In this document: one piece after another, positions 14,925 to 54,028 of the stretch | Position numbering within the stretch: the stretch's first letter is position 1 | Layout: each line of letters begins with the position of its first letter | NCBI RefSeq assembly: GCF_003112695.1 | Contig: NZ_BFBP01000003.1 | Span: forward strand, 231,227-295,226 | Origin: Azospira sp. I13 | GTDB taxonomy: Bacteria; Pseudomonadota; Gammaproteobacteria; Burkholderiales; Rhodocyclaceae | Length of the DNA: 64,000 nt | Direction: 5' to 3' | Notes under the pieces: generated by a model | Told to the model about the DNA's origin: nothing | Seen by the model: only the letters and a program-made list of their open reading frames with translations | Databases searched by the model: none | Made by a program: the position numbers and the translations under genes

Positions 14925-15209
14925 TTACTTTTTCTTGGGGGCAACGGCGGCCTTGAAGGCGGCGCCGGCGCTGAACTTCGGGCTGGTGGAAGCCGGGATC
15001 TGGATGGTGGCGCCGGTCTTGGGGTTCTTACCGGTGCGGGCTGCGCGCTTCACAGCCTTGAAGGAACCAAAGCCCACCAGGGTCACGCTGTCGCCCGTGG
15101 CGACGGCCTTGGTGATGGCTTCGATGGCTGCGTCCAGGGCACGGCCGGCAGCAGCTTTGCTCAGGTCGGCGCCAGCCGCAACGGCGTCGATCAGATCGCT
15201 CTTGTTCAT
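14925..15209 (-). CDS. hupB: DNA-binding protein HU
   Basis: 94 residues, HU/IHF family histone-like protein. The beginning [19 protein letters not shown], the VTLVGFGSF core and the RTGKNPKTG arm are diagnostic. The C-terminus is Ala/Lys-rich (PKKK). It binds DNA without strong sequence specificity and compacts the nucleoid. It starts at ATG 15209 with an AAGGAG-type site 8 bases upstream, and is followed by a strong terminator. The high use of preferred codons suggests abundant expression. Confidence 0.93.
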
Positions 15210-21787: not shown

Positions 21788-22111
21788 TCAGGCTGCCTGA
21801 CGCAGCCGTTGCTCCCGAGCGGCGGTTTCTGCAGCTTCCTGGACCCGTTCCCGCAGTTCCTTGCCGGCCTTGAAATGAGGCACGTGCTTGGCCGGGACTT
21901 CGACCTGCTCTCCGGTCTTGGGGTTGCGGCCCTGGCGGGCGGGGCGGAAGTTGAGGGAAAAACTGCCGAAACCGCGGATTTCCACCCGGTCTCCCTGGGT
22001 GAGGGCTTCGGCAATGGCGTCAAGCATGAGATTGACGGCAAAGTCCACATCCTTGGTCGTCAGATGGGGAAGTTTGCCCGTCAGATCGGCTACGAGTTCG
22101 GATTTGGTCAT
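21788..22111 (-). CDS. ihfB: Integration host factor beta subunit
   Basis: 107 residues, HU/IHF superfamily with the IHF-beta signature [17 protein letters not shown] and [26 protein letters not shown]. It has a C-terminal tail slightly longer than E. coli IhfB. With IhfA it bends DNA at WATCAA-N4-TTR sites. One such site stands between the GlrR boxes at 43317-43329 of this window. The usual upstream neighbour rpsA is absent; rdgC lies upstream instead. Confidence 0.88.
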
Positions 22112-39839: not shown

Positions 39840-41336
39840 ATGGGCATTCCGGCTGCGGCCCTTACAGTCATTTCCCTGCGCCCCGTGCTTGCCCGCTTGT
39901 CCTCTCTCCTGAGCGCCCGCCTCTATCCCCGCTCTTTCCTCAAGCTGCTGCTGCTGGCGTTCGGGGCGGCGGCCTTGCCCCTGGTGATCGCTCTGGTGCA
40001 GACCGCCCTGGAGGTGGATCTGCTGGTGCAGCAGAGCCGCCAGGCGGTGGGCCAGACGGCTCAGGCGGCCCGGGCCAGCCGCCAGTTGCTGGAGCAGACC
40101 GTGGCCCTAGAACGGGCCGCCCGCCAGTATCTGGTGCTGGGGGACGCCGGCCTGCTGGCGGATTACGACACCCTGCGCAGCGGCTTCAAGGCCACCTCCA
40201 GCGAGCTTTCCCTACTGCCCCTGGACGAAGCCCAGCTCACCGAGCTCAACCGCACCATCGATACCGAAGCCGCCCTGCACGAGCGCCTGCCGGCCATGTC
40301 TGGCGGCAAGACAACCCTGGCCCGGGATTACGCCGACCTCTCGGAACTGGCCCGGGGCGTGCAACGCATCAGCGATGCCCTGACCGACCGGGAAATGGCG
40401 CGCCTTGGCCAGCTCGCCGGGGAGGCGGAACAGCGCCTGTGGAAGCAACTGCTGGCCATGCTGCTGCTGGGGGCGGGGGTCTTTGCCCTGGCCGCGGCCC
40501 TCATTGCCCGTCCGGTGCGGGAGCTGGAGGCCGCCGTGAGCCGCCTGGGAGGCGGCGATTTCCAGGCCCCGGTGGCCGTGCACGGCCCGGCGGACCTTGA
40601 ACGCCTGGGGGAGCGCCTGGAATGGTTGCGCCAGGAACTGAACGCCCTGGAGGCCCAGAAGGCTCGCTTTCTGCGCCATGTCTCCCACGAACTGAAAACT
40701 CCCCTTACGGCCCTGCGGGAAGGGGCGGAGCTGCTGGCCGACGGCAGCGTCGGCAGCCTTTCCGAGGGGCAGCGGGACATCGTGGCCATCCTCCAGGGCA
40801 AGAGTCGCCAGCTCCAGGGCATGATCGAAGGGCTGCTCAATGCCCAGCGCGCCCTGGACGATCTGGGGCGCCTGCAGCGCCAGCCCCTGGACCTGGCCGA
40901 AGTGCTGCGCCAGGGGGTGGAGGCCCATGCCCTGGCGGCCCAGGCCCGGGATCTGCGTTTTGCCCTGGAATGCCCGTCCCTATTGGTTTCCGGCGATCGG
41001 GCCAAGCTCGCCACGGTGGTCGATAACCTGCTCTCCAACGCGGTCAAGTATTCCCCTGCCGGTGGTATCATCGCCGTCGCCTTGCAGGCCCGGGGCCGCC
41101 AGGCCTGGCTGGAAGTGCGGGACCAGGGGCCCGGTGTGGCCCCCGCCGACCGGGAACGCATCTTTGACTGGTTCGCCCAGGGCGGCAATCGCCCCCTCAT
41201 GGCCGGTGTGGCCGGCAGCGGCCTGGGCCTGGCCATCGCCCGGGAACTGGCCCAGGCCCATGGCGGCCGCCTCGAACTGCTGGCCGAAGGCCCGCCTGGC
41301 GCCGCTTTCCGCCTGGTACTGCCCCTGGAACCCTGA
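39840..41336 (+). CDS. glrK: Sensor histidine kinase GlrK (QseE)
   Basis: 498 residues. Membrane helices at about 33-55 and 203-223 flank a periplasmic helical sensor domain, followed by HAMP (about 223-275), the dimerisation helix with His283 in FLRHVSHELKTPLTALREGAELL, and the ATPase domain with N box (DNLLSNAVKYSP) and G boxes (DQGPGV, GSGLGLAIA). The H-box region matches enterobacterial GlrK/QseE closely. The ATG at 39840 overlaps a TAGAAT -10-like element, so a slightly later start is possible. Operon with qseG and glrR. Confidence 0.9.
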   Translation: MGIPAAALTVISLRPVLARLSSLLSARLYPRSFLKLLLLAFGAAALPLVIALVQTALEVDLLVQQSRQAVGQTAQAARASRQLLEQTVALERAARQYLVLGDAGLLADYDTLRSGFKATSSELSLLPLDEAQLTELNRTIDTEAALHERLPAMSGGKTTLARDYADLSELARGVQRISDALTDREMARLGQLAGEAEQRLWKQLLAMLLLGAGVFALAAALIARPVRELEAAVSRLGGGDFQAPVAVHGPADLERLGERLEWLRQELNALEAQKARFLRHVSHELKTPLTALREGAELLADGSVGSLSEGQRDIVAILQGKSRQLQGMIEGLLNAQRALDDLGRLQRQPLDLAEVLRQGVEAHALAAQARDLRFALECPSLLVSGDRAKLATVVDNLLSNAVKYSPAGGIIAVALQARGRQAWLEVRDQGPGVAPADRERIFDWFAQGGNRPLMAGVAGSGLGLAIARELAQAHGGRLELLAEGPPGAAFRLVLPLEP

Positions 41337-41360: not shown

Positions 41361-41888
41361 ATGACCCACACCTTCTTCCCTGCTGCCATTCGCCGTGTGC
41401 TCCTGCGCTTGCTGGTGTTGGGCCTAGGGCTAGGCGTGGCCGCCTGTAGCCATGTGCCCGCCGGTTCCGGCGTGGACGATGGCCGCGTCGATCACAGCCG
41501 TCTGGTCCTCGATACCCTGGCCCTGGCGCAGAAAACCGCCACAGCCTCCGCCGAGGAGCAGCGCCGGGAACTGGCCGCCGCCCAGCAGGCCTTCACCCGG
41601 GAACGCAGCCTCACTCACCGCCTGCGCCTGGGAACGCTGCTGGCCCTGCCGCTGCCCAACCTGGAAGACGAGGCCCGGGCGGTGCAGGTGCTGGAACCCG
41701 TGGCGGCCCAGGCCGGCCCGGGCAGTCCGGCAAGCCAATTGGCCGCCCTGCTGCTGGGCCAAGTCAATGACCGCCTCAAGCAGGCCCGCCGCGCCCAGCA
41801 GTTGAAGGAACAGCTGGACGAACTGAAGAACATCGAGCGCCAGCTCATCGAACGGGGCCGCCGCAGCGCCCCGCCCACCCGCCCCTGA
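41361..41888 (+). CDS. qseG: QseG-like outer-membrane lipoprotein
   Basis: 175 residues. A lipoprotein signal peptide has lipobox GVAAC (Cys at about 29). The rest is helical and charged, with a predicted coiled coil at about 135-165 (LKQARRAQQLKEQLDELKNIERQLIERG). Position between kinase and regulator, size and lipobox match QseG, which in enterobacteria lies in the outer membrane and contacts QseE/GlrK. Sequence identity appears low; the name rests mainly on synteny. Confidence 0.75.
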   Translation: MTHTFFPAAIRRVLLRLLVLGLGLGVAACSHVPAGSGVDDGRVDHSRLVLDTLALAQKTATASAEEQRRELAAAQQAFTRERSLTHRLRLGTLLALPLPNLEDEARAVQVLEPVAAQAGPGSPASQLAALLLGQVNDRLKQARRAQQLKEQLDELKNIERQLIERGRRSAPPTRP

Positions 41889-41919: not shown

Positions 41920-43278
41920 GTGGCTGAACTGCTGTTGGTGGACGACGATCCCGACATCCTCAAGCTGCTGGCCATGCGCCTGGCCACCGCCGGCCATCGG
42001 GTGCGCACCGCCGACAGCGGCGAACAGGCCCTGGTGATGTTCCAGGCCCAGCGGCCCCAGCTGGTCATCACCGACCTGAAGATGGGGGCCATGGACGGCC
42101 TTGCCCTGTTTGACGAGATCCAGCGCCGGGCGCCGACCCTGCCGGTGATCGTGCTCACCGCCCACGGCACCATTCCCGATGCGGTGGATGCTACACGCCG
42201 CGGTGTCTTTGGTTTCCTCACCAAGCCCTTCGACGGCAAGGCCCTGCTGGAGCAGGTGGAGCAGGCCCTGCGCCTTTCCGTGCCGGCGGGGCAGGGCGCT
42301 GCCCTGGAACCCTGGCGAGCAGAACTGGTGGGCGCCAGTCCGGCCATGCAGGAACTGCTGGAGCGGGCCCGCCTGGTCGCCGCCTCCGAGGCCAGTGTCT
42401 TCATCGCCGGGGCCAGCGGTACCGGCAAGGAGCTGCTGGCGCGGGCGGTGCACCGGGCCAGTCCCCGGGCCGGCAAACCCTTCGTCGCCATCAATTGCGC
42501 CGCCATTCCCGAGCATCTGCTCGAATCCGAACTGTTCGGCCACCGCAAGGGGGCCTTTACCGGCGCCGCCTACCACCACACCGGCCTGTTCCTTGAGGCG
42601 GATGGCGGCACGGTCTTCCTCGACGAAATCGGCGACATGCCCCTGGCCCTCCAGGCCAAGCTGCTGCGGGTGCTGCAGGAGCGCCAGGTGCGGCCCGTGG
42701 GGGCCACCCAGGCGGTGCCGGTGGATGTGCGGGTGGTTTCGGCCACCCACCGCAACCTGGAGGAACTGCTGCAGGGCGGCCAGTTCCGCGAGGACCTTTA
42801 CTACCGGCTCAACGTGGTCTCCCTGCACTTGCCGGCCCTGGCCGAGCGGCGGGAGGACATTCCCCTGCTGGCTAACCATTTCCTGCAGAAGACCGCGGCC
42901 CGCTACGGCAAGCCGGTGACGGCCTTCGCCCCCGAGGCCATGGAGGCTTTGGTGACTGCGCCCTGGCCGGGCAACGTGCGGCAATTGCAGAACGCCGTGG
43001 AGCAGGCCGTGGCCCTGGCGCCCGTGGGGGGCGGCCTGGTGCCCCTGGCCCTGATCCAGGGGGCCCTGCGCTCCGGCGATAATGCCTTCACCTCTCTGGA
43101 TGAAGCCAAGAAGGCCTTCGAGCGGGATTACCTGGTGCGCCTGTTGCGCCTCACCGAGGGCAGTGTCAGCCAGGCAGCCCGCCTGGCCCAGCGCAACCGC
43201 ACCGAGTTCTACAAGCTGCTGGAACGCCATCAGCTGGAACCCGGGCAGTTCAAACCGGGTGGCGCTGACCCGGCCTGA
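41920..43278 (+). CDS. glrR: Sigma-54-dependent response regulator GlrR (QseF)
   Basis: 452 residues. Receiver domain with Asp52 (VITDLKMG); AAA+ domain with Walker A GASGTGKE (164-171) and the sigma-54-contacting GAFTGA loop (211-216); Fis-type HTH at the C-terminus (SVSQAARLAQRNRTEFYKLLERH). The RNRTEFYKLL helix is characteristic of GlrR. It starts with GTG behind AAGGAGAG. Its operators lie directly downstream of its own stop codon, in front of the glycine-zipper genes. Confidence 0.93.
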   Translation: MAELLLVDDDPDILKLLAMRLATAGHRVRTADSGEQALVMFQAQRPQLVITDLKMGAMDGLALFDEIQRRAPTLPVIVLTAHGTIPDAVDATRRGVFGFLTKPFDGKALLEQVEQALRLSVPAGQGAALEPWRAELVGASPAMQELLERARLVAASEASVFIAGASGTGKELLARAVHRASPRAGKPFVAINCAAIPEHLLESELFGHRKGAFTGAAYHHTGLFLEADGGTVFLDEIGDMPLALQAKLLRVLQERQVRPVGATQAVPVDVRVVSATHRNLEELLQGGQFREDLYYRLNVVSLHLPALAERREDIPLLANHFLQKTAARYGKPVTAFAPEAMEALVTAPWPGNVRQLQNAVEQAVALAPVGGGLVPLALIQGALRSGDNAFTSLDEAKKAFERDYLVRLLRLTEGSVSQAARLAQRNRTEFYKLLERHQLEPGQFKPGGADPA

Positions 43279-43282
43279 TCGG

Positions 43283-43300
43283 CGTCGGGCCGGCCCGACA
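43283..43300. promoter_or_regulatory. GlrR-type binding site 1
   Basis: CGTCGGGCCGGCCCGACA, a near-match to the known GlrR operator TGTC-N10-GACA, with a 16-bp perfect palindrome inside (43284-43299). It begins 5 bp after the glrR stop and lies about 168 bp upstream of the predicted transcription start. Confidence 0.75.
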
Positions 43301-43316
43301 GCTGAAATCATCGTTA

Positions 43317-43329
43317 AATCAATGTATTG
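43317..43329 (+). promoter_or_regulatory. IHF consensus site
   Basis: AATCAATGTATTG fits WATCAA-N4-TTR exactly. It lies between the two GlrR sites, in an AT-rich segment, where DNA bending would assist an enhancer-bound sigma-54 activator, as described at E. coli glmY. Confidence 0.65.
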
Positions 43330-43348
43330 CATTTGTTGAAGGGGAACC

Positions 43349-43366
43349 TGTCGGGCCAGCCCGACA
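43349..43366. promoter_or_regulatory. GlrR-type binding site 2
   Basis: TGTCGGGCCAGCCCGACA, an exact TGTC-N10-GACA match, extended to 20 bp of symmetry by flanking C and G. Its centre is 66 bp from site 1 and about 102 bp upstream of the predicted start. Confidence 0.85.
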
Positions 43367-43432
43367 GGCAGGCCGTGATCGCGCGGTGGCAGTTCTTCTT
43401 CAATGCATTGAATTCAAAAGAAATTTCTTTCC

Positions 43433-43448
43433 TGGCACAGCCGTTGCA
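43433..43448 (+). promoter_or_regulatory. Sigma-54 promoter
   Basis: TGGCAC, 5 bp, TTGCA: the GG (43434-43435) and GC (43446-43447) of the -24/-12 elements are 10 bp apart as required. The predicted start is near 43459, 45 bp before the glycine-zipper gene at 43504. Confidence 0.9.
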
Positions 43449-43503
43449 ATAACGGTGTCAAGCCGCGTCATCAACGACGGGCGTTTTGCACAGGAGAAGA
43501 AAA

Positions 43504-43836
43504 ATGAACCTCAGACAGATTGCTGCCGCGGCCGCCCTAGTGGTGGCCAGCGGCCTGGCCCAGGCCCATGGCGGTATCGACGGCGATGCCGTGATTGGCG
43601 GCGCCCTGGGCGGTGCTGCCGGTGCTGCCGTCGGCTCGGCTGTCGGCGGACGCGATGGGGCCATCGTGGGCGGTGCCCTGGGGGCGGCTGCCGGTGTTTC
43701 CCTCAACACCTCCAGCCCGCGCTACGGCGGCTACGGTGGCTATCGAGGCGATGACCGCTACTACTACCGGGAACGCCACGACCGGGGCCGCCACCTGGGC
43801 CACTACAAGCATCGCCATCATCACCATCACGACTGA
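43504..43836 (+). CDS. Glycine-zipper protein with histidine-rich tail
   Basis: 110 residues. A signal peptide ends at AQA-HGG (residue 22). A glycine zipper (GGALGGAAGAAVGSAVGGRDGAIVGGALGAAAG, described by its Gly spacing at about 31-63) may form a membrane hairpin. The Tyr/Gly-rich linker leads to a His/Arg tail with five consecutive His. First gene behind the GlrR/sigma-54 promoter, with AGGAGAAG before the ATG. It is probably an envelope protein made under stress; the tail could bind metal (inference). Confidence 0.8.
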   Translation: MNLRQIAAAAALVVASGLAQAHGGIDGDAVIGGALGGAAGAAVGSAVGGRDGAIVGGALGAAAGVSLNTSSPRYGGYGGYRGDDRYYYRERHDRGRHLGHYKHRHHHHHD

Positions 43837-43868
43837 GTCTGCCTCACCGTTCAACGGAAGGAGCCGCC

Positions 43869-44519
43869 ATGGAACCCACCTTTACTTTCGCCCGGGCCCC
43901 GCTGCCCCGGCACTATCTTTCCCGCCAGCCGACGACTTTGCATCCCCTGCTCAAGGTGGCTGCGGTCTCCTTGACGGTGTTGAGCCTGCTGGGCATCGGC
44001 GCCATCACCGGCCTCATCCCCACGGCCTCTTCCCAGCCTGAAGCGGCGGGCGAGGCCATCGCCGCCGAGGCGGTGGGCACTCCCGCCAGCCACCGCGCCG
44101 GGGCGGAGAAGGGTGCTTCGAGCCAGTCTTCCGGCAAGAGCAGCGGCCAGGGGGGCGCCACACCGGCCAAGGCCAAGGCGGCCTGCGCCAGCTGCGGCGT
44201 GGTGGAAACCGTGCGTACCGTGCAACTGGAAGGCAACGCCAGCGGCATCGGTGCCGTGGCCGGGGGCGTTACCGGCGCCCTGGTGGGCAACCAGTTCGGC
44301 CGGGGCGGCGGCAACACGGCCATGACCCTGATCGGTGCCGCCGGCGGTGCCTATGCCGGCAACAGCATCGAAAAGAACATGAATCGCCAGACCGCCTACC
44401 GCATCACCGTACGCATGGATGACGGCGCCTACCGCACCATTTCCCAGTCCCACGTGCCCTCTGTGGCCGCCGGGGACAAGGTGCGGGTGATCAACGGCAA
44501 CGTCAGCGCCATTCCCTGA
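43869..44519 (+). CDS. Glycine-zipper 2TM (17 kDa antigen-like) protein
   Basis: 216 residues. N-terminal membrane anchor (about 28-50), an Ala/Ser/Gly-rich spacer, a CASCG motif near residue 110, then the glycine-zipper 2TM domain (AVAGGVTGALVGNQFG and LIGAAGGAYAGNSIEKN) and a C-terminal RITVRMDDGAYRTI domain typical of the rickettsial 17 kDa surface antigen/SlyB family. It lies 32 bp after the first glycine-zipper gene and is presumably co-transcribed from the sigma-54 promoter. Likely an envelope-integrity protein. Confidence 0.85.
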   Translation: MEPTFTFARAPLPRHYLSRQPTTLHPLLKVAAVSLTVLSLLGIGAITGLIPTASSQPEAAGEAIAAEAVGTPASHRAGAEKGASSQSSGKSSGQGGATPAKAKAACASCGVVETVRTVQLEGNASGIGAVAGGVTGALVGNQFGRGGGNTAMTLIGAAGGAYAGNSIEKNMNRQTAYRITVRMDDGAYRTISQSHVPSVAAGDKVRVINGNVSAIP

Positions 44520-44597
44520 GTTCCGGGGCTTGCGGCCTGACCATCATCCACTCCCCATGGCAGCGCCATGGACCCAATCCACAATCAGGAGAACATC

Positions 44598-44825
44598 ATG
44601 AAAACAATATTCCGCCCCTTGGCCGCCATCCTGCTGGCCCTTAGCCTGAGCCTTTCCCTGGGGGCCTGCAGCAGCAATCCGACCCGCCAGCAGGTGGGAG
44701 TGGCCACCGGCGCCGTGGTCGGTGGCGTGGTGGGTGCCGCCCTCACCGGCGGCAGCACCACCGGTACCGTGGCCGGTGCTGCTGCCGGTGGCCTGGTGGG
44801 CAATGAACTGTCGAAGCGGCGCTAA
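44598..44825 (+). CDS. Small glycine-zipper lipoprotein (OsmB-like)
   Basis: 75 residues. A lipoprotein signal with lipobox LGAC (Cys about 25) is followed by QQVGVATGAVVGGVVGAAL and a second glycine-zipper half, then a basic end (SKRR). ATG 44598 follows CAGGAG, in preference to an upstream in-frame ATG. Third member of the cluster, 78 bp after the second. It resembles osmotically induced OsmB in size and layout. Confidence 0.85.
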   Translation: MKTIFRPLAAILLALSLSLSLGACSSNPTRQQVGVATGAVVGGVVGAALTGGSTTGTVAGAAAGGLVGNELSKRR

Positions 44826-44832
44826 AGAGCTG

Positions 44833-44870
44833 GGCGGCATCGAGGCACCGAGCTGATGCCGCCTTGCTGA
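44833..44870 (+). terminator. Possible terminator after the glycine-zipper cluster
   Basis: GGCGGCATC (44833-44841) pairs with GATGCCGCC (44855-44863) across a 13-nt loop, followed by TTGCTGATTT. The T tract is interrupted. Confidence 0.45.
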
Positions 44871-45092
44871 TTTCCCGGCTGCGATGACCCTGGGCCGGCG
44901 GCTGCCTCTTGCTGCCGGCCCACTGCCTGTCGCCTGGGTCGATCGTTTCCTGTTTCCTTACTTGCCTGACTTTTCCACTTACCACTCCGCTTCCGCCACT
45001 CCGGCGACTCCCGCTCCTTCCGCCGTTTTCTCCCCAAGCTCCCGTCCCGGGAGCGTGTCCTACCGCACGGAGCCCCAAAAAGGGCCGTGCTA

Positions 45093-45115
45093 GTATTTGT
45101 CGCAAGCACAAATAC
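45093..45115. repeat. Inverted repeat GTATTTGT-N7-ACAAATAC
   Basis: Eight-bp perfect arms with a 7-bp spacer in otherwise GC-rich DNA, about 310 bp before the GGDEF-EAL start. A candidate operator; no matching regulator is known to me. Confidence 0.45.
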
Positions 45116-45423
45116 ATAACCGGCTCCCCCCGCCGGCAGGATGAGGGATGTCTCTGTTGTCTTGGAAAATTCCAGTCAGATGCCTGGCCCCGGTCTTTTT
45201 GACTACCGGGAGGCCACCTCTTTTTTGGGGTACGCGGCAGCTGTCCTGTCCTGGGGAATGGGCTGTTGCCGAGGTGGCGGCAGCGATGGCCGCCACGACG
45301 ACCACGACCACCTCCTCGATCACCTTCACGATTGCCACCAGCATTTCTTCCTGGATGGCTTGCTGTTTCGCCCCAGCTGGCTGCCTTGCCCGGCCCATGG
45401 CGTCGGGTATCCGGGGCTGATCC

Positions 45424-48381
45424 ATGGGCTGGATGCCGAGCATAAAGGCCAAGCTGCTGACCTTGCTGCTGCTGACCATCTTTTCGGTCCTGGCGGTGGT
45501 GGGCACCCTGCTTTCCATCGGCGTCGAACGTTTCCATCGGGAAGAAACCCTGGAGGTCTTTGCGGCGGCCCAGCGGTCCCTGCGCCTGGAACTGGAAAAC
45601 CGCCAGGGGCTGCTGGTCCAGGCAGCCAACCGGCTGGCGGCTGACGAGCTGCTGCAAAATTCCCTCCACCAGATTTCCCTCCGCGGCAGCCAGGCCGGCA
45701 GCAACCCCCGCGCCCTGGATGGCGAGAAGAAACGCATTGCCGTGGAATTGGCCCGTGGGGGGGGCAGCACCCAGCAGGCCTTGCTGGCCGCCTTGGACGG
45801 GGCGGGCCAGCTGGTGGCCTTTGGCCGTGCCGACGGGAACAGCGTGGCCGTGGGCTTGCTGGCTTTCGATGCCGCCGGAATGCCCGTGCCCAGCCTGCAG
45901 GACCCTTCTCACCCCAGCCGCTGGCGCCCCGGGGCCGTGGGGGAGGAGATCAAATTTATGGCCCAGCGGGGGCGCCAGGCCTTGCCGGCCATGACCCTGG
46001 TGCGTACTCCCCGGGGGCTGATGCTGTTGGCCAGCGCGCCGGTATTCCGTCTTGACGGCGTGGGGGAGGAGCGCGGGGCGGAGGGAATCGAACGGGAGCC
46101 GGGCGAGGGCCGGGAACGCCCCGTGGGCCGCATTCTGGTGGGGCAGGTGCTGGGGGAGGAATTTTTGACCCAGATTGCCCGCTATACCCCCATCCGTTTC
46201 GGCCTTCTCTTTCAGGGCGGTGATGCCCTGGGCGAGGTGGCGGGGGCGGCACTCCAGGGGCTGAATTTGACCCGCTCGGCACCGCTGCTGGCGGATGGGG
46301 ACGACCTGCGCCAGGGCTGGCAGGAACTGCCGGCCCACTTTCTCAAGCTGCTTTCCCTGCCGTTGTCCGATGGCGAAACCGCCTACCCGGTGCTGGTGTT
46401 GGAGAAGGAGGCGGTCAACAAGCAGATCCACCAGACCCTGCGGGTGCTGCTGCTGGTGCTTCTGGCCTCGGCTGCCCTGGTCATTCCCATGGGCCTGGCG
46501 GTGGCCAACCGGGCTATCACCCGGCCGGTGGTGAATCTGGTGGAGAGCGTCGACCTGGTGAAGGAAGGGCGTTACGAGCAACTGCCCGGAGCGCCCGAGG
46601 GGCGGGGGGAATTCGCCCGGCTGTTTTCTTCCCTCAAGGACATGGCCGACACCATCCGCAGCCGCGAGGAACAACTGCGGCTCTGGGCCAAGGTGCTGGA
46701 GCAGAGCCGGGAGGCCATTTTCGTCACCGACGAGGCTAGCCGCATCCTGCTGGTGAATCGAGCCTTCGTTGCCATCACCGGCTACGCCCCCGAGGAGGCC
46801 CTGGGCCAGACGCCGAAGTTTCTGCAATCGGGCCGGCATGATGCCGAGTTCTACCGCGCCATGTGGCAGTCCCTGCGGAGCAACGGCCACTGGCAAGGCG
46901 AGCTGTGGGACCGGGCCAAGGATGGCCGCATCTATCCGCAGTGGGTGGCCATTACCGCCGTGGCCGACGAGCCGGGCGTGGTGACCAACTACATCGCCAT
47001 CTTTTCCGATCTGACGGAACACAAGGCGGCCCAGGAGCGCATCCAGTTCCTGGCCCAGCACGATTCCCTTACCGAACTGCCCAACCGCCTGCTGCTGCAG
47101 GACCGCCTGGCCATGGCGGTAGCCGTGGCGGCCCGGGATGGGCACCAGGTGGGGGTGCTGTTCGTGGATCTGGACCGCTTCAAGACCATCAATGATTCCC
47201 TCGGTCACACCGTGGGGGACGAACTGATCAAGGAAGCCACCCGGCGCCTCAAGGATGCGGTACGGGAATCGGATACGGTGGCCCGCCTGGGGGGCGACGA
47301 ATTCATCGTCGTGCTTCACCGCATCCGCCAGGCCGAGGATGCGGGCCATGTGGCCGACGGTATCCTGGCCCATCTGGCCCAGCCTTTCAGCGTGGCCGGG
47401 CAAGAGCTGCGGGTCACCGCCTCCATCGGCATCAGCCTTTTTCCCAGCGATGGCGAGGATGCGGAGGGGCTGATCAAAAATGCGGATACGGCCATGTTCC
47501 ACGCCAAGGAACGGGGCCGTAACAACTACCAGTTTTTCCGCCGGGAAATGAATGCCAAGGCCGGGGAGCGCCTGGCCCTGGAGAACGCGCTGCGGGGCGC
47601 CGTGGCGCGCCATGAATTTGTACTCTTTTACCAGCCCCAGGTGGAGATCCGCTCGGGTCGGGTGATCGGTGCCGAGGCCCTGATCCGCTGGCAGCGGGAG
47701 GAAGGTTTTGTTTCCCCCGCCGATTTCATCCCCCTGGCCGAGGAGACTGGCTGCATTCTCGAGATCGGCGACTGGGTGCTGCGGGAAGCCTGCCGCCAGC
47801 AGCAGGTGTGGGACGAGGCCTGGCCAGCCCGGGGCCTGCGGCCGGTGCCGGTGGCGGTCAATCTCTCGGCCCTGCAGTTCCGCCAGAAGCTCTTCCGCGA
47901 GACCCTGCTGGATATTCTCGCCGAGCATCCCCTACCTGCCGGGCGCATCGAACTGGAACTGACTGAAAGCATCGTCATGGAAGACCCGGAGCAGGTGGAA
48001 ACCCTGCTCGACAGCCTGAAGCAGGCCGGTCTGCGCCTGTCCATTGACGATTTTGGCACCGGTTATTCCAGCCTTTCCTACCTCAAGCGTTTTCCCCTGG
48101 ACAAGCTGAAGATCGACGCTTCGTTTGTGCGTAACATCGTGAACGACTCGGCTGACCTGGCCATCGTCCATGCCGTGGTCTCCCTGGGGCATAGCCTGGG
48201 GCTGCGGGTGGTGGCGGAAGGGGTGGAGGGGCCGGCGGAGTTGCAGATTCTCCACGGCATGGGTTGCGATGTGGCCCAGGGCTACTACTTCAGCCGCCCG
48301 GTGCCGGCGGCAGAATTCGAGGCCTGGCTGGCCAGCTATGCACCTCAGCGCATGGTGGGCAGCCTGACCGTTGGTGCCTGA
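45424..48381 (+). CDS. Membrane sensor GGDEF-EAL protein with HAMP and PAS
   Basis: 985 residues. Membrane helix about 9-31, periplasmic sensor domain about 32-335, second helix about 340-362, HAMP about 362-415, PAS about 425-540 (FVAITGYAPEEALGQTP), GGDEF about 550-705 and EAL about 715-965. GGDEF is intact with an RESD (RxxD) inhibitory site. EAL shows EALIRW, LELTESIVMED and DDFGTGYSSL. Both activities are possible. ATG 45424 is used; ATG 45433 is the alternative. It is a paralogue of the protein at 23184-26063 but differs in the sensor and in having HAMP. Confidence 0.9.
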   Translation: MGWMPSIKAKLLTLLLLTIFSVLAVVGTLLSIGVERFHREETLEVFAAAQRSLRLELENRQGLLVQAANRLAADELLQNSLHQISLRGSQAGSNPRALDGEKKRIAVELARGGGSTQQALLAALDGAGQLVAFGRADGNSVAVGLLAFDAAGMPVPSLQDPSHPSRWRPGAVGEEIKFMAQRGRQALPAMTLVRTPRGLMLLASAPVFRLDGVGEERGAEGIEREPGEGRERPVGRILVGQVLGEEFLTQIARYTPIRFGLLFQGGDALGEVAGAALQGLNLTRSAPLLADGDDLRQGWQELPAHFLKLLSLPLSDGETAYPVLVLEKEAVNKQIHQTLRVLLLVLLASAALVIPMGLAVANRAITRPVVNLVESVDLVKEGRYEQLPGAPEGRGEFARLFSSLKDMADTIRSREEQLRLWAKVLEQSREAIFVTDEASRILLVNRAFVAITGYAPEEALGQTPKFLQSGRHDAEFYRAMWQSLRSNGHWQGELWDRAKDGRIYPQWVAITAVADEPGVVTNYIAIFSDLTEHKAAQERIQFLAQHDSLTELPNRLLLQDRLAMAVAVAARDGHQVGVLFVDLDRFKTINDSLGHTVGDELIKEATRRLKDAVRESDTVARLGGDEFIVVLHRIRQAEDAGHVADGILAHLAQPFSVAGQELRVTASIGISLFPSDGEDAEGLIKNADTAMFHAKERGRNNYQFFRREMNAKAGERLALENALRGAVARHEFVLFYQPQVEIRSGRVIGAEALIRWQREEGFVSPADFIPLAEETGCILEIGDWVLREACRQQQVWDEAWPARGLRPVPVAVNLSALQFRQKLFRETLLDILAEHPLPAGRIELELTESIVMEDPEQVETLLDSLKQAGLRLSIDDFGTGYSSLSYLKRFPLDKLKIDASFVRNIVNDSADLAIVHAVVSLGHSLGLRVVAEGVEGPAELQILHGMGCDVAQGYYFSRPVPAAEFEAWLASYAPQRMVGSLTVGA

Positions 48382-52819: not shown

Positions 52820-54028
52820 ATGAAACTGCCCATCTACCTTGATTACTCGGCCACCACCCCGGTGGATCCCCGCGTGGCGGAGAAGATGATCCCCTACCTG
52901 GTGGAGAAGTTCGGCAATCCCGCTTCCCGCTCCCACGCCTACGGCTGGGAAGCCGAAGCTGCGGTGGAAGAGGCCCGGGAGCAGGTCGCCGCCCTGGTCA
53001 ATGCCGACCCGAAGGAAATCGTGTGGACCTCCGGTGCCACCGAGTCCAACAACCTGGCCATCAAGGGTGCTGCCAATTTCTACTCCGGCAAGGGCAAGCA
53101 CATCATCACCGTCAAGACCGAGCACAAGGCCGTGCTGGATACCGTGCGGGAGATGGAGCGTCAGGGCTTTTCCGCCACCTACCTGGACGTGCTGGAAAAT
53201 GGCCTGATCGACCTGGAGGCTTTCAAGGCCGCCATTCGTCCTGATACCGTCCTGGTTTCCGTGATGTTCGTGAATAACGAAATCGGTGTCATCCAGCCCA
53301 TCGCCGAGATCGGCGAGATCTGTCGCGAGAAGGGCATCATCTTCCACGTCGACGCCGCCCAGGCCACCGGCAAGGTGGAGATCGACCTGGACAAGCTCAA
53401 GGTGGATCTGATGAGCTTTTCCGCCCACAAGACCTACGGCCCCAAGGGCATCGGCGCCCTCTACATCCGCCGCAAGCCCCGCGTCCGCCTCGAAGCCCAG
53501 ATGCACGGCGGTGGCCATGAGCGCGGTTTCCGCTCCGGCACCCTGGCCACCCACCAGATCGTCGGCATGGGCGAAGCCTTCCGTCTGGCCAAGGAAGAAA
53601 TGGTCGAGGAAAATAAGCACATCGCCGCCCTGCGGGATCGCCTGATGAAGGGACTTTCCGACATGGAAGCGGTCTACGTTAACGGGGACCTGGAACAGCG
53701 CGTCGCCCACAACCTGAACATGAGCTTTGCTTACGTGGAAGGGGAATCCCTGTTGATGGCCATCAAGGACGTGGCGGTTTCCTCCGGTTCTGCCTGTACT
53801 TCCGCCAGCCTGGAACCTTCCTACGTGCTGCGCGCCCTGGGGCGTGAAGACGAACTGGCCCACAGTTCCATCCGCTTCTCCATCGGCCGCTTCACCACCG
53901 AGGAAGAGGTGGATTACGTGGTCAAACTGCTGCACAGCAAGGTGGGCAAGCTGCGGGAACTGTCGCCCCTCTGGGACATGTTCAAGGAAGGCATCGATCT
54001 GAATACCGTCCAGTGGGCTGCCCACTGA
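52820..54028 (+). CDS. iscS: Cysteine desulfurase IscS
   Basis: 402 residues, close to the 404 of E. coli IscS. Start [22 protein letters not shown] lysine in [12 protein letters not shown], catalytic loop [17 protein letters not shown], and the C-terminus ending LNTVQWAAH, which contacts IscU, are all typical. It removes sulfur from cysteine and passes persulfide to IscU and other acceptors. ATG 52820 is chosen by homology; upstream in-frame codons lack support. Confidence 0.97.

Follow-up and report, generated by a model that had tools for sequence, protein, structure and literature searches.

A predicted GlrR- and sigma-54-dependent switch behind glrR faces three glycine-zipper envelope genes in Azospira sp. 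I13

In this study, a stretch of 64,000 nucleotides from Azospira sp. I13 (contig NZ_BFBP01000003.1, positions 231,227 to 295,226; hereafter the window) was analysed, and a predicted switch of two GlrR operators, sites for integration host factor (IHF) and a sigma-54 promoter was located in the 225 bp between glrR and three genes for exported or membrane proteins, GZ1, GZ2 and GZ3. The locus very probably represents a cis-linked output module, in which the GlrK-QseG-GlrR system, with sigma-54 and IHF, would drive an operon of envelope proteins. The order on the plus strand of this 3.79 Mb genome is glrK, a lipoprotein gene, glrR, the 225 bp, GZ1, GZ2 and GZ3. The regulator and the operator are known, and the location and the payload are new. 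The signal and core function of this system, also named QseE-QseG-QseF, have mostly been studied in enterics, via small RNAs and virulence. The initial annotation of the window knew of no description of the linked arrangement; likewise, no GlrR-controlled protein operon beside glrR was found in the literature searched, subscription papers being mostly outside its coverage, and the accessible parts of PMC3162934, PMC8895600, PMC12194929, PMC12316311 and PMC11722255 contain none.

The first predicted operator, IR1 (43283-43300, plus strand, CGTCGGGCCGGCCCGACA), departs from TGTC-N10-GACA by one mismatch and holds a perfect 16-bp palindrome at 43284-43299. The second, IR2 (43349-43366, plus strand, TGTCGGGCCAGCCCGACA), is an exact TGTC-N10-GACA placed 66 bp from IR1, start to start, and an exact IHF consensus stands between the two (43317-43329, plus strand, AATCAATGTATTG). 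The predicted -24/-12 promoter follows IR2 after a gap of 66 bp (43433-43448, plus strand, TGGCACAGCCGTTGCA); it is the sole exact match in the 64 kb, and its -12 element ends 56 bp ahead of the GZ1 start codon. Two palindromes, one of them exact, an IHF consensus and a -24/-12 promoter within 225 bp had been described in the initial annotation, and all were located as claimed on re-reading. The interval between IR2 and the promoter also contains an IHF-like site that had not been described (43401-43413, minus strand, CAATGCATTGAAT); it differs from YAANNNNTTGATW at one position, and its offset relative to the -24 element is -32. The strings used in these searches are what we take to be the IHF and sigma-54 consensus sequences. 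The arrangement by which GlrR-dependent sigma-54 promoters are recognised, TGTC-N10-GACA upstream of a -24/-12 element, is thus present.

Single motifs are weak evidence, and the weight rests on their combination, spacing and recurrence. Exact TGTC-N10-GACA occurs twice in the window, the second time at 53961-53978, against 0.54 expected, and 8 of 100 shuffles reach two. Loose matches to the longer palindrome stand at chance level (13 versus 10.5 expected), and the sigma-54 search with one mismatch allowed gave 4 matches against 3.2 expected.

Recurrence was evaluated in 300 genomes of the order, 120 of which carry a GlrR orthologue at E <= 1e-140. The counts are based on 141 glrR loci that extend 300 bp or more downstream of the gene; a 142nd (L021) was dropped as too short, and one glrR place at a contig end (G320) and the second copies in G305, G132 and G033 were left out. 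Seven of the 141 loci had entered through the motif search, and glrR is also present in their genomes. An unbiased dyad scan, which assumed no motif and covered 256 tetramers at 25 spacings as inverted repeats, returned the GlrR operator as its top result (GTCG-N8-CGAC, 84/141 downstream regions), followed by TGTC-N10-GACA (63/141). Ranks three to five were shifted registers of the same palindrome, and unrelated dyads among the 15 listed reached at most 16 regions. A composite, defined as an operator with at most two mismatches and a sigma-54 site of at least 9/12 matches at 58-82 bp, was present in 67 of the 141 loci; shuffled sequences gave a mean of 0.3 and a largest value of 2, reversed sequences gave 0, and none occurred inside glrR (0/61). 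Paired operators at 60-72 bp were found in 73 loci, and a composite or an operator pair in 92. All 25 pair-only loci hold a sigma-54 site of 10-12/12 matches at other distances.

The composite thresholds were fixed after the first 30 loci and 30 motif loci had been viewed, and the counts were therefore repeated on 105 loci fetched later, a few of whose genomes had already been met under other identifiers (for instance, L083 is L058, and L085 is L048). GTCG-N8-CGAC was again the top dyad (59 loci), with 41 composites and 65 loci carrying a composite or a pair. Chance palindromes are rejected by the dyad scan, the composite controls, the spacing and this repetition. Absence of the sites from orthologous loci had been named in the initial annotation as a refutation; the sites are there in 92 of 141 loci.

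The distances between operator and promoter were analysed in 99 loci where an operator precedes a strong sigma-54 site. The gaps cluster near 53, 64, 75, 84 and 95 bp, with a best period of 10.4-10.5 bp (R 0.65). The gaps outside the 58-82 bp range (n = 37) gave R 0.64, a value matched by none of 5000 uniform random draws; R was 0.49 when each distinct gap was counted once (n = 33) and 0.63 at 10.5 bp in the later loci alone (n = 71). Because the loci are related, these values are descriptive and do not amount to proof. A looped activator predicts preference for one face of the helix, and the periodicity therefore fits a DNA loop. IHF-like sites with at most one mismatch lie between IR1 and IR2 in 31 of 49 loci (3.5 expected) and between IR2 and the -24 element in 39 of 67 (7.2 expected); in the latter interval, 11 of the 12 exact IHF sites of other loci stand at offset -32.

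This phasing bears on a reading in which the palindromes act as terminators or are mere repeats following glrR and an ordinary promoter serves the zipper genes, which we regard as extremely unlikely. GC-rich inverted repeats near a stop codon would suit a terminator, but the repeats recur as operator pairs at near-fixed spacing and in phase with a -24/-12 site. The search of the intergenic region for a terminator or a sigma-70 promoter found neither: 43279-43503 holds no terminator-like site, and 43200-45450 no sigma-70-like promoter.

Among the closest known systems is the glmY enhancer of enteric bacteria. Upstream of glmY in E. coli K-12, three operators match the consensus exactly (-230, -197 and -134), and a sigma-54-like site lies at -27. 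In the accessible part of PMC8745638, glmY of Proteus mirabilis is given the consensus TGTCN10GACA, two IHF sites and three QseF sites, and QseF activation of E. coli glmY is assisted by IHF according to the text available of PMC6075780. E. coli glmY and the window share the operator TGTC-N10-GACA, the sigma-54 site and the position beside the glrK-qseG-glrR genes. Two of the E. coli operators are 63 bp apart, compared with 66 bp in the window; E. coli has three operators and a gap of 89 bp to the promoter, whereas the window has two and a gap of 66 bp. In enterics, the switch precedes glrK and drives a small RNA, whereas in the window it lies downstream of glrR and faces protein genes. Given this very similar layout and the anatomy of the module, the module looks like a glmY enhancer placed before protein genes. 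In four loci (L055, L059, L300 and L304), the composite is not behind glrR but upstream of glrK, in divergent orientation, and the one in L055 faces a gene that is bactofilin-like by eye.

The assignment of the regulator is based on identity and synteny. The glrR (qseF) product (41920-43278, plus strand) matches Response_reg and Sigma54_activat, contains the ESELFGH and GAFTGA motifs of a sigma-54 response regulator, and shares 57% identity with E. coli GlrR across 444 columns, RNRTEFYKLL in the helix-turn-helix region being unchanged; we call it an orthologue on the basis of this identity and the synteny. The gene order glrK, lipoprotein gene, glrR is that of GlrR (QseF) systems. The sensor histidine kinase gene glrK (qseE; 39840-41336, plus strand) encodes HAMP, HisKA and HATPase_c domains, and its product shares 33% identity with E. 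coli GlrK across 482 columns; its start codon was picked by eye, and the translation tested starts 7 codons earlier, in frame. Between them, 41361-41888 (plus strand) encodes a QseG-like lipoprotein with a lipobox-like GVAAC. This product had no Pfam match up to E 0.01 and no significant BLASTP similarity to E. coli QseG; a profile of 20 sequences matched E. coli QseG weakly (probability 52.6, E 1.4e-4), with a C-terminal KLxxLxxIERxL-type motif in common. The name QseG, which had been assigned in the initial annotation, fits the position and is not borne out by BLASTP; it would rest mainly on position, lipobox and the shared C-terminal motif. The genome also contains rpoN, ihfA and ihfB.

The switch and GlrR co-occur. 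A strict composite pattern was found in 53 of the 300 genomes at 69 places, with 3 in the reversed control; it is present in 44 of the 120 genomes that have GlrR and in 9 of the 180 that lack it (odds ratio 11, p 2e-12). Among 80 loci picked by GZ2 similarity alone, the best-scoring part of a longer list, 27 have a same-strand glrR no more than 2.5 kb upstream, and the composite was found in 16 of these versus 4 of the 53 others.

The use of the palindromes by a sigma-54 activator other than GlrR appears quite unlikely against this background. Candidates exist, as the GlrR query finds 11 more matches in the genome at E <= 1e-30, and the nine genomes with composite matches and no GlrR orthologue would also fit. 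However, the motif is the QseF/GlrR consensus TGTCN10GACA in the part consulted of PMC8745638 and stands at E. coli glmY, composites or paired operators lie behind glrR itself in nearly two-thirds of the loci, the odds ratio with GlrR presence is 11, and the helix-turn-helix segment is that of E. coli GlrR. Operator-like matches with TGTCA...TGACA ends occur in L050 and L051 and in the composites of G141, G217 and G247; four of these five are in genomes without a GlrR orthologue, and they may be sites of a different regulator.

The promoter behind glrR also stands apart within its own genome. TGGCAY-N5-TTGC occurs at 28 sites (7 in the reversed control), and paired operators within 300 bp upstream were found at one of these, 43433-43448, with a single poor match at two others. 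With relaxed composite criteria there were 4 matches, compared with 2 in controls, the other three being chance-like by eye. A wider GlrR regulon was not found in the genome by these searches, which would miss weaker promoters.

Behind the switch, the three reading frames GZ1, GZ2 and GZ3 are open and preceded by AGGAG-type ribosome-binding sequences. GZ2 (43869-44519, plus strand) encodes a SlyB-related membrane protein. The profile of the GZ2 family finds SlyB (PDB 7ojf) with E 1e-9, the match covering the zipper and the C-terminal domain, and SlyB is the sole PDB match of the GZ2 structure model at E <= 0.001 (1.4e-9). The description of GZ2 as 17 kDa-antigen-like in the initial annotation is better replaced by this relationship. 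The glycine-zipper hairpin and C-terminal domain of SlyB (7ojf/7ojg) align to GZ2; unlike SlyB, GZ2 has an N-terminal hydrophobic segment, CxxCG and no lipobox, and for lack of the lipobox it is classed as SlyB-related, not as a SlyB. Across 25 GZ2 sequences, CxxCG, one proline and one glycine of the C-terminal region are invariant; in a wider set of 29, the two cysteines are nearly, not fully, invariant, and CxxCG is absent from 4 of the best-scoring 80 GZ2-selected stretches, one of them a faulty reading. The glycine zipper, which had been treated as a constant feature, is absent by eye from about 10 of the 25, which keep CxxCG and the C-terminal domain. LPxAxS is common after the hydrophobic segment in the family and could be a cleavage site. 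SlyB is an outer-membrane stress protein that encapsulates outer-membrane proteins under stress in E. coli, as described in the portions available of PMC11825808 and PMC13082787. It is under PhoP (PMC11825808, same portion), whereas GZ2 is predicted to be under GlrR and sigma-54.

GZ1 (43504-43836, plus strand) encodes an exported glycine-zipper protein with a His/Tyr-rich tail. It resembles the YMGG-like Gly-zipper (E 2.8e-5) and falls just under the Pfam glycine-zipper cut-off (24.2 versus 28.9 bits), whereas GZ2 and GZ3 are above theirs. Relatives of GZ1 follow glrR in L009 and L010, and L058 has one as a later gene. Its C-terminus is a natural histidine run, and His-rich ends occur also in the L009 and L010 relatives; metal binding by this tail is possible. 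GZ3 (44598-44825, plus strand) encodes a small lipoprotein with a lipobox-like LGAC and a match to Rick_17kDa_Anti (29.1 bits over a cut-off of 24.2). OsmB shares the lipobox-like motif and the glycine zipper. The earlier label of OsmB-like lipoprotein holds as a likeness, the NCBIfam OsmB model matching over nearly full length at 50.3 bits, and goes no further, as the cut-off is 98; the promoter found here, of sigma-54 type, is a further difference from OsmB.

In relatives, envelope genes of several kinds follow the switch. First-gene calls were automatic: GZ1 was skipped in L001 and L009, the true first reading frame was missed in L065 and L066, and several calls classed as other are probably not genes. 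Similarity grouping chained L068, L119, L159 and L116 into the GZ2 cluster, and all four were excluded from the GZ2 count. Pfam searches covered 10 single representatives and the 33 members of a BON cluster. Among the 92 switch loci, the first gene encodes a small exported BON/EF-hand protein in 32 (of the 33 cluster members, 30 have a BON match and 14 an EF-hand match) and a GZ2-type protein in 23, to which L010 adds GZ1 followed by GZ2. Eleven loci have a periplasmic-glucan-type first gene, eight OpgH-like (L102, L115, L146, L157, L160-L162 and L164) and three OpgG-like (L076, L100 and L167); Pfam identified a family-2 glycosyltransferase in L102, a type of first gene that we take to be OpgH, and MdoG in L076 (E 5.5e-139). 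These eleven loci have paired GlrR sites and a sigma-54 site with gaps of about 83, 94, 107 or 117 bp, unlike the gaps of 64 or 75 bp common elsewhere. At least four switch loci begin with a small MKRFDT-type protein, and the remaining first genes are assorted or doubtful, including a bactofilin, a CsbD-like and a DUF1328 protein. A class-level search gave composites in 25 of 274 genomes at 33 places (4 in the control), 2 of the 25 from the order of the window, and several of these composites precede genes that are EF-hand-like by eye. The linked set had been considered a property of this lineage; the linkage stands, and its restriction to the lineage does not, as other lineages carry other envelope genes behind the switch. 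Persistence of the three zipper genes beside glrR holds for GZ2, the most widely kept member of the putative operon, and for the full trio only within the genus: GZ1-GZ2-GZ3 recurs in one relative (L009, same genus), L010 of that genus has GZ1 and GZ2 in a stretch that ends before the GZ3 position, and a GZ3 relative adjoins GZ2 also in L011 and L033.

These genes also bear on whether the promoter mainly makes a GlmY-like small RNA or a 5' leader, with the proteins secondary, a reading that we judge very improbable. A very similar enhancer drives glmY in E. coli, and some motif loci (L059 and L056, for instance) have no reading frame near the promoter. Against this, Rfam at gathering level matches nothing in the window but four tRNAs, the distance from the end of the -12 element to the GZ1 start codon is 56 bp whereas glmY is annotated with 184 nt, and a candidate reading frame was called in every locus examined for a first gene, although several calls are doubtful.

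In the cis-linked module that we favour, an inducing signal would lead phosphorylated GlrR to bind IR1 and IR2, and IHF would bend the DNA at the sites following each operator. The bend would let the AAA+ assembly of GlrR touch sigma-54 RNA polymerase at 43433-43448 and open the promoter, so that the putative operon for three exported or membrane proteins would be transcribed. The SlyB-related GZ2 would probably serve to shield or cluster envelope proteins when the membrane is under stress, with the OsmB-like lipoprotein and the His-tailed zipper protein acting alongside; this envelope-protective role is the least certain step. The proposal of the initial annotation that GlrR, sigma-54 and IHF directly drive the linked envelope genes is supported at the level of sequence by the conservation of operator and promoter, the glmY layout, the co-occurrence with GlrR and the likeness of GlrR to its E. 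coli counterpart.

Several observations weigh against this module. Neither a composite nor paired operators lie downstream in 49 of the 141 glrR loci, and the loci are related, so the counts are not independent. Besides the nine genomes with composites and no GlrR orthologue, one of the 16 glrR-linked composites among the GZ2 loci (L209) looks accidental, and four of 53 GZ2 loci without adjacent glrR carry a composite; of these four, the L207 locus contains a glrR match at another place and the L214 stretch ends early. In the NCBIfam equivalog test, GlrR was the best of 112 models at 622 bits, below its cut-off of 763, which might be tuned to enteric sequences. The structure model of GZ2, built from the window protein and 28 relatives, is of moderate quality (mean pLDDT 72.7, pTM 0.44); its TM score to SlyB is 0.56 by target length and 0.39 by query length, and the first cysteine of GZ2 is residue 106, in keeping with the missing lipobox.

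On an evenly balanced judgement, GlrK-QseG-GlrR may ancestrally have served, in this part of Gammaproteobacteria, as a cis-switch for whichever envelope effector lies behind glrR (SlyB-like, BON/EF-hand or periplasmic-glucan enzymes), with glmY as one derived payload on the same IHF-looped, helix-phased enhancer. The conserved output beside the sensor genes suggests that the role of the system elsewhere is the making of envelope-protective proteins, and a SlyB relative would be tied to a sigma-54 pathway. The module supplies ready reporters and a simple in-vitro promoter, and the phased operator-promoter distances form a natural series for loop geometry in sigma-54 activation.

Further genes of the window were noted. 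An ihfB-type gene that exceeds the NCBIfam cut-off and another HU/IHF-like gene that falls short of it are present at 21836-22111 and 14937-15206 (minus strand), and two matches in the genome pass the ihfB cut-off. Directly 3' of the zipper genes, 45424-48381 encodes a GGDEF-EAL protein with PAS and HAMP domains, apparently outside the switch.

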